Made by a program: the position numbers and the translations under genes | Notes under the pieces: generated by a model | What the model saw: the letters and a program-made list of their open reading frames with translations, nothing else | What the model was told of the DNA's origin: nothing | Databases searched by the model: none | From: Arctopsyche grandis | Lineage: Eukaryota; Arthropoda; Insecta; Trichoptera; Hydropsychidae | DNA length: 64,000 nucleotides | Reading direction: 5' to 3' | NCBI RefSeq assembly: GCF_051622035.1 | Contig: NC_135365.1 | Coordinates: 6,665,501 to 6,729,500 of the forward strand | Shown: one piece after another, positions 8,143 to 12,272 of the stretch | How positions within the stretch are numbered: the stretch's first letter is position 1 | Layout of the letters: each line of letters starts with the position of its first letter

Positions 8143-9291
8143 TTAATTGGCATAATTAAAATAAATCGCTTGAATGCTCTCAACACTACCTTGAGTATCA
8201 AAGTGATCATCTTTAATCATGATATAGTTAATATCTGATATGGGTATTTGGTGAGGAAAAAAAGTTGCTTGATTGTTTATTAGAGAATGTATGCCATCTG
8301 CACCCATATTCATTTTAATTTGAAACGATTCTCCTGCAAAAATAGTTTAAGAAATGAACAATATAAAAAGTAATTAATTGAATATTAAATTGCAATTTCA
8401 CCTGGTGTGAGTGGCGATTTCTTATAGTCCACGGAGTTTTGTGACCATTGTCCATAAACTAGAGCATTTAAATGAATAGCGTTGGATTTATGGGAGATTC
8501 TATGTTGGTAATTTACGTGGTATTGTTCTCCATTTCTAAATTCAGAAACCAGATTTATCGAGAAACTGAAATTGAATATTTTTACATTAATAACATACTG
8601 CACATATGTACATATGTATGTATGTAAGTGTGGACACAATGTTTTATTATGCGTATACATACATACATACATATGTAGATAGAGTAAAAAAATATAAAAT
8701 GTAAGTTCGAAACAAATTGCTGACGGAGAATCGAAGAAAACGAAAGACAAAGAAAATCATAATGTGTAAGATCAAATATGCTAACAACTTTTCGTTTTTA
8801 TTTTAACCACTCCAGTATAGAGGTGAAAAGACAATTATTTTTGTCCTTATGTACTAGTCTCTATTCGATGGATGGAACTGCTTGAGCGACCACCATAAAT
8901 ACTTGCAATACTTTGAATATTGTGGAATAATATAATTTTTTACATTTACATATTTTATTTTATATAAAAAGAGCTATTAAATATTAAGCTTGGATTTTTA
9001 TTATATCTTGTCGATGACCAAATGAAGTGTAGACAAAGCTACAGTGGTTTTTTTTACACCCTCATTATAGCTGTACATACACCACTTTATGATTACTGAT
9101 ATTATTATAAAATTGAAAAAAAAATACCTTTTAACGTCATTTGTTAATAATATTCTCACTGTAACTTCGTCTCCTATTTTGAGTGGGGACGTAATGTTGA
9201 AAACAACTTGTCGTGGTATTAGAGATGGCTCTATATCTGTAGCGAGCACCGACGCCAACATGGCCACAATTAAAAATGACACACGCACCAT
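8143..9291 (-). CDS. Secreted galectin-like gene 3, exons 9291-9128, 8565-8402, 8333-8143
   Basis: Exons of 164, 164 and 191 bases give 172 residues. The start is set by MVRVSFLIVAMLASVLA, a clear signal peptide, followed by TDIEPSLIPRQVVFNIT and KIGDEVTVRI. The acceptor just before the ATG (AGGCAG) suggests a 5' UTR intron. Exon 2 holds FSINLVSEF, YQHRISH, HLNALVYGQWSQN; exon 3 holds MGADGIHSLINNQATFFPHQ and ends IYFNYAN. The first junction splits a Ser codon (AG|T) where genes 1 and 2 have Cys. Contact positions: Arg of HxNxR, Asn and Trp are kept, but the Glu three after Trp is Asn and the Arg five after Trp is Val. It should enter the secretory pathway. Intron 1 has lost about 250 bases relative to gene 4 and genes 1-2. 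ATTAAA lies downstream (complement of 7993-7998). Confidence 0.87.
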
Positions 9292-9728
9292 TTCTGCCTA
9301 AAAAAATATGCACATGTATTTATGGTAAAAGGTTTTTTTCGCACATTGCGATCGCGAGCACGACATTTGTTGCTATGAAAATCGCGAATACGGAATATCT
9401 GGTACTTGGGTTCTCGAAAATTCGCGTTGTTACTCTCGATGGATGGAATTTTCTGTTGCCAGATGTTCCGTGATCAAGATTTTAGTGACGTGTCCGAGAT
9501 CGCTTTGTGCGTTATAATCACCGAACCCATTATTAACCCATTTTTTTTAAATTAATACCACAGAGACTTGACAGGTAGTTATAATACAAATATAAGTATA
9601 TGTACATAAAACAAGAAAAACAAACATCATAAAAAAAATAAAAAGCAAGTGTAAAATAGATATGTGTAGTAAAAAACAAATAAATTAGAAATTATATCGT
9701 GCTATGTAGGATGTGTATAACATATAAG

Positions 9729-9886
9729 ATATATATATATATATATATATATATATATATATATATATATATATATATATATATATATATATATATATAT
9801 ATATATATATATATATATATATATATATATATATATATATATATATATATATATATATATATATATATATATATATATATATATAT
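9729..9886. repeat. (TA)n microsatellite in left palindrome arm
   Basis: About 158 bases of pure TA upstream of gene 3. The inverted counterpart near 10603-10627 has only a short TATATACATATA stretch, so the tract expanded after the palindrome formed. Confidence 0.95.
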
Positions 9887-10871
9887 AATAAGCACAATGT
9901 CGTTATTTTACAAAAAATGAGTAAATTTTCAGTAACAGCTCAATACCTGTTTGGATGTAGAATAATCTGGACTAGTTAGCAAATGAATTGCGTGCAGGTG
10001 ATTGATGCCAATTACCGAATATTTCAACTTTATATAGAATAGATTATCTGGAAAATTAGTCTCCAATCTACATATTTTAAGTGCTAAAAATAGGTACACA
10101 CAATTCTAAAAACGCATAATCTGCGATACATACATACATATGTAAATACATATATATATATGTACGTATGTATGTAATTATAATCTTTTCTTCGTAATTT
10201 CATTATGTTTTTGTTTTGCGAGAAATTATATAAATATTATAAATGTGGTATCTTATTTATTTACGTATATTACAATGATCCAATCCAATCTACCCATTAT
10301 AAAATTGGTATCGATTATTTTTTCGATACGATCGCATTTATAATAATCTATTTGTAAATTATCGCATAAAAAAAAACATAATGAAATTGCGAATATTCCA
10401 ATATAAGATTATAATTACTTATATAAGTATATGAATGTATGTATATATCGCAGATGATGCGTATTTAGAAATGTGTGTACCTATTTAGAATTTGAAATAG
10501 ATTGGAGACTAATTTTCCAGATTATTCTACATCCAAAGAGGTATTGAGCTTTTTCTGAAAATTTACTCATTTTTTGTAAAATAACGACATTGTGCTTATT
10601 GATAACATATGTATATATACATATAAATCCTGTTCGGTGATTATAACGCACAAAGCGATCTTGGAATAGTCACTAAAATCTTGATCATGAAACATCTGGC
10701 ACCCGAAAATTCCATCCATCGAGAGTAACTAACTCGAACTATCGAGAATTCGAGTACCACATATTCCGTATTCGCGATTTTCGTAGCAACAATTGTCGTG
10801 CTTGCGATCTCAATGTGCAAAATAATCCATTTTCCATAAATGCATACATATGCATATTTTTTTACTCAGAA

Positions 10872-12272
10872 ATGGTGCGTGTGTCATTTTTAATTGTGGC
10901 CATGTTGGCGTCGGTGCTCGCTACAGATATAGAGCCATCTCCAATACCGCTACAATTTATTTACAACATTACTTCCCAACTGAAAATAGGAGACGAGGTT
11001 ATAGTGAAAATATTATTAACAAATGGCGTTAAAAGGTATTTTTTTTTCAATTTTATAATAATATCAGTAATCATAAAGTGGTGCATGTACAGCTATAATG
11101 AGGTTTTAAAAAAACCACTGTAGGTTTTTCTACGCACCATTTGGTCATCGACAAGATATAATAAAAATCCAAGCTTAATATTTAATAGCTCTTTTTATAT
11201 AAAATAAAATATATAAATGTAAAAAATTATATTATTCCATAATATTCAAAGTATTGCAAGTGTATTCATGAATGGCGCGTTATTGGGTAAAATAATTAAC
11301 TTGTTTTAATTTCGTTTAGCAAGTTGTTGAATTGTTTGCAATTCATAAAAATCATAATAATTTTTATTCCAGATGATAGGGATAATGGTGCAATCCCTAT
11401 CGTCCATATAAACAATATATAATATATGTATGTTTGTAGATAATACAAATGATAAAATAAATATAATAATAATAATATGTAAATAATTCAAATAATTAAT
11501 AAATCAGTCGACAAATAATTAATGGTGGTCGGTCAAGCAGTCCCATCCATCGAATAGAGACTAGTACATAAGGACAAAAATAATTGTCTGTTCACCTCTA
11601 TACTGGAGTGGTAAAAACGGAAAGTTGTTAGCATATTTGATCTTACACATTATGCTTTTCTTTGTCTTTCGTTTTCTTTCGATTCTCCGTCAGCAATTTG
11701 TTTCAAATTTATATTATGTATTTTTTTACTCTATCTACATATATGTATGTATGTATATGCATAATAAAACATTGTGTCCTCACTTATGTACACACATAAC
11801 ATACATACATATATGCAATTTGTAATTAATGTGAAAATATTAAATTTCAGTTTCGCGATAAATCTGCTTCCTGAATTTAGAAATGATGAAGATTACAACG
11901 TAAATTACCATCATAGATTTTACCATTCAGCAAACTATGTACATATAAATGCTCGAATTAATGGCCAATGGTCAGAAAACTACGTGGACTATCAGAAAAC
12001 GCCACTCACATCAGGTGCAATTTCAATTTAATATTCAATTAATTACTTTTTATATTGTTCATTTCTTAATAACTATTTTTGCAGGAGAATCAAATCAAAT
12101 TACAATGCATATGGGGGCAGATGGCATACATTATCTAATAAACAACCAAGCAACTTTTTTTCCTCACCAAATACCCATATCAGATATTAAATATATCATG
12201 ATTAGAGATGATCGTATTGGTGGTCAAAGTGTTGAGAGCGTTCAATCGATTTCTTTTAATTACGCCGATTAA
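10872..12272 (+). CDS. Secreted galectin-like gene 4, exons 10872-11035, 11851-12014, 12085-12272
   Basis: Exons of 164, 164 and 188 bases give 171 residues, one codon shorter than gene 3 in the last exon. The first 23 codons, covering signal peptide MVRVSFLIVAMLASVLA and TDIEPS, are identical in nucleotide sequence to gene 3. After that the two diverge mostly by replacements: exon 1 remainder 9 replacement and 4 silent codons, exon 2 22 and 1, exon 3 14 and 4 plus one codon indel. Domain landmarks are FAINLLPEF, YHHRF, HINARINGQWSEN, MGADGIHYLINNQATFFPHQ, SISFNYAD. HHRF keeps the Arg, and Asn and Trp are kept; the Arg five residues after Trp is Val. An acceptor (TTTTACTCAG, ending 10869) lies 2 bases before the ATG, so a 5' UTR exon is likely upstream. 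AATAAA at 12404-12409. Confidence 0.88.

Follow-up and report, generated by a model that had tools for sequence, protein, structure and literature searches.

The window analysed here, which is the whole 64,000-nucleotide stretch C11:6665501-6729500 of the genome of the caddisfly Arctopsyche grandis, contains 2 galectin-like genes, here called gene 3 (LOC143918873) and gene 4 (LOC143918964), that are arranged head to head within a palindrome spanning about 5 kb. Each gene has 3 coding exons (164 and 164 bases, followed by 191 in gene 3 or 188 in gene 4), GT-AG introns and an intact reading frame, and the predicted products of 172 amino acids (gene 3) and 171 amino acids (gene 4) consist of an apparent signal peptide and a galectin domain. 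The gene 3 protein has the same sequence as the NCBI protein LOC143918873 (P0002), and the gene 4 protein is 100% identical to NCBI LOC143918964 (P0001). The features of the locus, in positions of the window, are as follows.

8143..9291, minus strand: gene 3, coding exons 9291-9128, 8565-8402 and 8333-8143
10872..12272, plus strand: gene 4, coding exons 10872-11035, 11851-12014 and 12085-12272
7718..9526, minus strand: palindrome arm of gene 3, from self-comparison
10632..12657, plus strand: palindrome arm of gene 4, from self-comparison
9859..10628, no strand: inner part of the palindrome, more decayed than the arms, in which 9859-9971 is matched by 10516-10628 (92%) and 10032-10532 by itself (70%)
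10632..10840, plus strand: dispersed repeat ahead of the first coding exon, in a putative intron 0, at the equivalent place in both arms
11262..11517, plus strand: insertion of about 256 bases, found only in intron 1 of gene 4 in the arm alignment
11851..12014, plus strand: exon 2 of gene 4, the most diverged segment (22 of 55 codons replaced relative to gene 3)
12015..12084, plus strand: intron 2 of gene 4, differing from gene 1 at 17 of 68 bases

The 2 arms aligned in two pieces, with 86% identity over 1196 columns and 91% over 631 columns, around a centre near position 10282, and the inner parts pair more loosely than the arms. Genes 3 and 4 thus show the arrangement of inverted-repeat paralogue pairs, in which two related genes point in opposite directions on arms that are themselves homologous. 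Donor motifs would place the last base of a 5' non-coding exon at 9947 for gene 3 and at 10540 for gene 4, so that the promoter region of the head-to-head genes is probably common to both and symmetrical. The dispersed repeat at 10632-10840, for which at least 38 further genomic matches were recorded among the 40 candidates scored out of 3018, makes up most of an upstream stretch of 230 columns, in which the divergence between the 2 genes is 11.7% (27/230). Another segment, at 11348-11555 in intron 1 of gene 4, had one further genomic match at 82%.

An earlier note on this DNA had described the genes as a secreted galectin-like pair, and the galectin part of this description agrees with the profile and structure searches. 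Both proteins matched the PF00337 profile above the cut-off of 22.1 bits, gene 3 with 56.3 bits (E=2.9e-15, profile positions 5-124 of 132) and gene 4 with 54.9 bits (E=8.1e-15, positions 2-124 of 132), and the NCBIfam profiles gave sub-threshold matches only. The AlphaFold model of gene 4 had a mean pLDDT of 79, with values below 50 for residues 1-23. Its best Foldseek match in the PDB was galectin-7 (E=1.3e-11, TM-score by target 0.87), and there were 341 matches at E<=0.001, with galectins in all of the 50 best. As modelled, gene 4 has the galectin beta-sandwich fold. The leader was judged by eye, hence the term apparent signal peptide; it has a short charged start, a hydrophobic core and small residues before the cut, and is common to 7 genes. 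Galectins typically lack a classical signal peptide.

The canonical beta-galactoside contact residues of galectins are H44, N46, R48, N61, W68, E71 and R73. In an alignment with galectin-1, whose sugar-contact strands correspond to strands encoded by exon 2 of gene 4, genes 3 and 4 both retained N46, N61 and W68, and both contained N instead of E71 and V instead of R73. The H44 position was occupied by H in gene 3 and by N in gene 4, and the R48 position by Q in gene 3 and by H in gene 4, with R77 in both if the alignment is shifted by two. Neither protein thus contained the full canonical set in this alignment, and because of the altered contact residues, sugar binding by these proteins can only be called putative. 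It was also noted that residue 32 of both proteins lies in an N-glycosylation sequon, NIT, where genes 1 and 2, located elsewhere in the window, have N-V-P and N-I-P.

The divergence between genes 3 and 4 was unevenly distributed. No differences were observed in codons 1-23 (0/69 bases), whereas the rest of exon 1 differed at 13 of 95 bases (9 replacement and 4 silent codons), exon 2 at 30 of 164 (22 replacement and 1 silent codons), and exon 3 at 21 of 188 (14 replacement and 4 silent codons, with one 3-base indel). The corresponding values were 34 of 553 aligned bases for intron 1, 2 of 68 for intron 2, which also contains a 2-base indel, and 32 of 378 for the 3' flank. Taken together, the mature exons were more diverged (64/447) than the introns (36/621, Fisher p=3.5e-6) and than the introns and flanks combined (95/1229, p=9.8e-5). 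Base composition was rejected as the cause of this excess, since it predicts a mature-exon divergence of 6-8%, compared with the 14.3% observed. Exon 2 also showed an excess of transversions, with a transition:transversion ratio of 6:24 compared with 44:51 in non-coding DNA (p=0.011). The coding part contained a single indel, of 3 bases, compared with 15 events per 1229 aligned non-coding bases, and codons 127-144 formed a run of 18 codons free of replacements. Replaced codons were enriched in residues 66-99, a region chosen post hoc that surrounds the strands aligned to the sugar-contact strands (16/34 vs. 29/114 elsewhere, p=0.02).

The codon and base counts given in the earlier note were exact on recount, including those for intron 2, and the faster change of exons than of introns was confirmed. 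Its description of the introns as nearly identical applies to intron 2, the only intron counted there, and is an overstatement for the 2 introns together, which were 5.8% diverged. The signal peptide, described there as frozen, was identical with p=0.04 relative to the introns, and an identical run of 75 bases was obtained in 10% of 5000 permutations. With statistics this weak, and with variation of the same segment in 2 sister pairs described below, we rejected the idea that selection has frozen it. The concern that exon 2 might contain an assembly error found no support either, and an artefact of assembly or annotation is highly improbable, as both exons are open, in frame, and bounded by splice sites on a 30.8-Mb contig, and NCBI predicts identical proteins.

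With about 79% of the sites being replacement sites, neutral change would by itself give nearly the observed proportion of 45 replacement to 9 silent codons. Codons 24-172, referred to here as the mature part, contain 352.5 replacement and 91.5 silent sites, at which we counted 50.5 replacement and 13.5 silent changes, resulting in a dN of 0.159, a dS of 0.164, and an omega (dN/dS) of 0.97 by the NG86 method. The maximum likelihood (ML) estimate was 0.91, with p=0.78 in a likelihood ratio test against 1. For exon 2 alone, ML omega was 1.22, not different from 1, and increased to 1.9 with kappa fixed at the non-coding value of 2.19 (p=0.22). The assumption that replacement-dominated divergence means an omega above 1 was rejected on these values. 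Values this close to 1 are nevertheless high where the protein has stayed intact, and in simulations of neutral decay 3.15 termination codons were expected, compared with none in either copy (P=0.04).

Strong diversifying selection across the whole mature protein, with omega above 1 as in venoms or immune effectors, would fit a replacement divergence that is twice the non-coding divergence (50/352 vs. 95/1229, p=5e-4), the exon 2 omega of 1.2-1.9, and the fact that 4 of 5 sites identified in the family-wide analysis below differ between genes 3 and 4. However, the silent sites of the exons show just as large an increase, being about 2-fold more diverged than non-coding DNA (13/91, rounded, vs. 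95/1229, p=0.04) and also more diverged than the introns alone (p=0.006), and no test in the pair yielded an omega significantly above 1. We therefore consider domain-wide selection of this kind unlikely.

Two further galectin genes in the window are informative on how slowly the introns evolve.

717..2191, plus strand: gene 1 (P0003, LOC143919340), exons 717-835, 1764-1927 and 2001-2191; galectin with no apparent signal peptide
4396..5556, plus strand: gene 2 (P0004), named '16 kDa beta-galactoside-binding lectin-like', exons 4396-4502, 5135-5298 and 5366-5556; galectin with no apparent signal peptide

At 690-730, just before the start codon of gene 1, the sequence by eye resembles a decayed leader start, with TTG where genes 3 and 4 have ATG, and the loss of the leader from gene 1 looks secondary.

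Among genes 1-4, intron 2 differed by 25-29% between the deep pairs, compared with 47-51% at silent sites, which corresponds to roughly 0.4 of the silent rate; the contrast was weaker at both ends of intron 1 (about 24-42% in the deep pairs). It follows that the introns of genes 3 and 4 look conserved partly because intron 2 is slow, and that slow introns make up part of the exon-intron contrast. The introns were also less diverged than the upstream repeat stretch (36/621 vs. 27/230, p=0.005), and we rejected them as a neutral yardstick on both grounds. The mature exons, in turn, were similar to the repeat stretch (64/447 vs. 27/230, p=0.41). This similarity, the slow intron 2 of the deep paralogues and an omega indistinguishable from 1 are all consistent with relaxed constraint only, whereby redundant secreted lectins drift neutrally while regulatory or splicing constraint slows the introns, with no positive selection and little conversion. 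We consider this possible though rather doubtful, since the frames, the splice sites and the replacement-free codons 127-144 have been kept, exon 2 shows its transversion excess, and a signal of positive selection is present in the family as a whole.

The wider family was identified in a six-frame search of the genome with gene 1, which gave 26 exon matches, 25 of which were on C11; the other galectins of the genome gave 9 matches on C1, C3, and C7. Upstream of the window, C11 contains 2 more genes, one leaderless (gA) and one with a leader (g0), as well as a remnant of an exon 3, and a tblastn search with genes 1-4 gave no match in the next 40 kb. There are at least 7 complete genes with a leader on C11, namely g0, genes 3 and 4 (g3 and g4), A1, A2, B1, and B2, 6 of which are arranged in 3 inverted pairs. 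Their leaders are of the common type ML/VRVSxLxxAM, with MLCVS in A2 and a start of MMMLRVS in g0. The 2 additional pairs are listed below.

L047 4271-5186 (+) and 7555-6640 (-): pair A (A1/A2), tail to tail, arms 96.7% identical over 1951 columns
L048 7213-5127 (-) with L049 258-1330 (+): pair B (B1/B2), head to head, 94-95% identical in two pieces

In a tree of 10 genes, the leaderless g1 and g2 were placed as sisters to g3 and g4 among the genes with a leader, which suggests that g1 and g2 have lost it.

In branch models with 4 genes, omega was 0.97 for g3/g4 and 0.29 on the other branches (p=7e-4), and genes 1 and 2 gave an omega of 0.20. With 10 genes, the values were 1.02 for g3/g4, 0.88 for pair A, 0.51 for the background, 0.42 for pair B, and 0.21 for the leaderless g1/g2, and 5 omega groups fitted better than one (p=9e-4). 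The site models for the 10 paralogues favoured positive selection in the comparisons of M2a with M1a (p=0.009), M8 with M7 (p=5e-5), and M8 with M8a (p=0.002), with about 10% of the sites at an omega of about 2.5. The comparison of M8 with M8a gave p=0.029 after columns near gaps had been dropped (126/150 kept), and the observed value was reached by none of 69 null replicates. Sites with a posterior of at least 0.9, numbered as gene 4 residues read off the ten-gene alignment, were 81, 97, 154, 156, and 157 in the full set and 81, 90, and 154 in the trimmed set; all of these sites except 157 differ between g3 and g4. Diversifying selection, as proposed in the earlier note, thus remains supported for the family as a whole at a small number of sites, together with an acceleration of protein change relative to the paralogues, whereas the proposed dN/dS above 1 was not recovered in the pair itself. 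Overall, that reading is partly supported.

The identity between the arms is also patchy in the other pairs. Differences were spread unevenly along the arms of both pair A (p=1e-5) and pair B (p=7e-5), and in pair A the mature exons were more diverged than non-coding DNA (17/471 vs. 17/968, p=0.04). The leader segment was the most different of 8 segments in pair A (7/69) and the second most different in pair B (5/69). Such patchiness in inverted pairs suggests gene conversion. Moreover, at codons 31, 67, 75, and 91, g4 matches g1 and g3 matches g2, with no columns of the opposite kind; only 0.64 such columns were expected (P=0.01, 300 simulations, post hoc). These columns may represent old divergence that has survived conversion, or parallel change. 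A main tree of (g1,g4),(g2,g3) was rejected, since exon 2 strongly supports the sister topology (23 sites vs. 5 vs. 1).

Gene conversion alone, the alternative raised in the earlier note, would have homogenized the non-coding DNA and the signal-peptide end and left the exons with older, unselected divergence. It finds some support in the silent divergence of the exons, in the 4 columns described above, in the uneven sister pairs, and in published inverted-repeat pairs with similar ends and a dissimilar remainder (PMC1803023). We nevertheless find it improbable as the whole explanation, because conversion tracts would not be expected to follow several exon borders unless selection acted, exon 2 strongly supports the sister topology, and the repeat upstream of exon 1 has not been homogenized (27/230).

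The explanation to which we give about even chances combines elements of these alternatives: a palindromic pair of secreted galectins evolving at a roughly neutral overall rate, under relaxed constraint with some positive selection and with patchy gene conversion. It builds on direct observations, namely the inverted arms, the intact frames, a dN close to dS, an omega higher than on the remaining branches of the galectin tree, and the uneven identity in 3 pairs. Genes 3 and 4 would go back to one secreted galectin gene of a galectin cluster that was duplicated in inverted orientation, producing the palindrome. Gene conversion between the arms would keep patches alike, such as the start of exon 1 and parts of the introns, while the mature lectin domain would escape homogenization and evolve at a nearly neutral pace. 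Such a pace most likely reflects both relaxed constraint at many sites and repeated positive selection at a few, and the latter would split the range of ligands or partners of the 2 lectins. The genes are probably expressed together, judging from the putative symmetrical promoter region, and their function may be the recognition of foreign or secreted glycans.

Several results weigh against this explanation. The branch-site tests for g3/g4 were not significant with either 4 or 10 genes (p=0.12 in both cases), so that positive selection in the pair itself is unproven, and with 4 genes the comparison of M2a with M1a gave p=0.097. In the ten-gene models, the background omega is already 0.51; M8 vs. 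M8a was slightly liberal, with 8 of 69 null replicates past the nominal 5% cut, and gene conversion violates the tree that this comparison assumes. Replacements were enriched neither in nor outside the strands (25/81 vs. 20/67), and strand-versus-loop enrichment was rejected accordingly. The 9 purely silent codons alone were not more diverged than the introns (p=0.16), and unevenness was modest within the introns (p=0.015) and even less marked in introns and flanks (p=0.085). The deep intron distances are biased downwards by optimal alignment, with shuffled sequences at 44%. In pair B, the silent sites (dS 0.026) were less diverged than the introns (31/528), which shows that slow introns are no rule of the whole family, and the contrast of pair A was reversed, with mature exons (5/471) less diverged than non-coding DNA (65/1022, p=1e-6), a pattern that purifying selection could partly explain. 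For g3/g4, there are hints, not proof, of selection for difference.

Elsewhere in the family, the NCBI model of A1 (P0005, LOC143919239) comprises 214 amino acids and appears to run into the antisense strand of A2, with a C-terminus that by eye is unrelated; the inverted repeat has probably misled the annotation here. Galectin exons without the rest of the gene, which are possible remnants, were seen at L009 3377-3560 (exon 3), L048 4024-4457 (exons 2 and 3), and L048 380-230 (leader exon). In three protein searches for orthologues, which depend on shared 5-residue words and so do not imply absence elsewhere, all matches (2, 4, and 5, respectively) were to proteins of A. grandis itself. Other open reading frames in the window encode 2 reverse transcriptases (PF00078) and one hAT-type transposase (DUF4371, Dimer_Tnp_hAT), at 21453-23417, 46641-48284, and 36829-39009.

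Accelerated evolution of a galectin pair and inverted-repeat paralogue pairs are both already known. Congerins I and II, galectins of conger-eel skin mucus, evolve at an accelerated rate with a reported dN/dS of 2.6 (PMC3269628; also PMC2843614), and thus precede the present case, of which the earlier note knew no description in galectins. Like genes 3 and 4, they are duplicated galectins with a single carbohydrate-recognition domain (CRD) and accelerated protein change, and they come from a body-surface secretion. Unlike genes 3 and 4, for which omega is about 1 and not significantly higher (0.91-0.97), they have a dN/dS above 1, and they are vertebrate proteins for which no inverted repeat is described in the parts available; an apparent signal peptide distinguishes the caddisfly genes. 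In Caenorhabditis, paralogues are likewise located in long inverted repeats, divergently or convergently, and one pair is 100% identical in the first 297 coding bases although the genes are 59.6% identical overall (PMC1803023). Those repeats are described as nearly perfect and were compared in 3 species, whereas the arms described here are 86-91% identical in one species.

Among insects, 12 fig wasps are reported to have 3 galectins per species, conserved in number and without signal peptides (PMC8702095); the galectin domain is common to both, whereas the A. grandis family is multi-gene with an apparent signal peptide. Five galectins are induced on infection in house flies (PMC5400391), and a galectin has been reported from the male accessory gland secretion of a moth (PMC9960318). 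In frog glue, mono-CRD galectins, which genes 3 and 4 resemble in this respect, are abundant in the secretion and one binds a glycoprotein, with positive selection reported for the glycoprotein partner (PMC11237159); any connection with caddisfly silk is conjecture. By analogy, immunity, reproduction or adhesive secretion are possible settings for genes 3 and 4. Among the papers listed for galectins of caddisflies (Trichoptera), judged from the listings and, for PMC7512004, from passages of the text, none describes such genes.

More speculatively, and in our judgement not very likely, caddisflies may have evolved a family of classically secreted galectins that duplicates again and again as inverted pairs. 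The palindromes would then serve as a device, with conversion keeping promoter, leader, and introns alike and with repeated selection for differences at sites on the ligand face of the mature lectin, so that lectins expressed together would differ in specificity. What is new here is one chromosome with at least 7 leader-sharing galectin genes, 6 of them in 3 inverted pairs, and the finding that a striking replacement:silent count is close to the neutral ratio is a useful correction. The 3 inverted pairs on one chromosome are natural replicates for the interplay of gene conversion and selection, and they point to little-studied secreted lectins of a silk-spinning aquatic insect.

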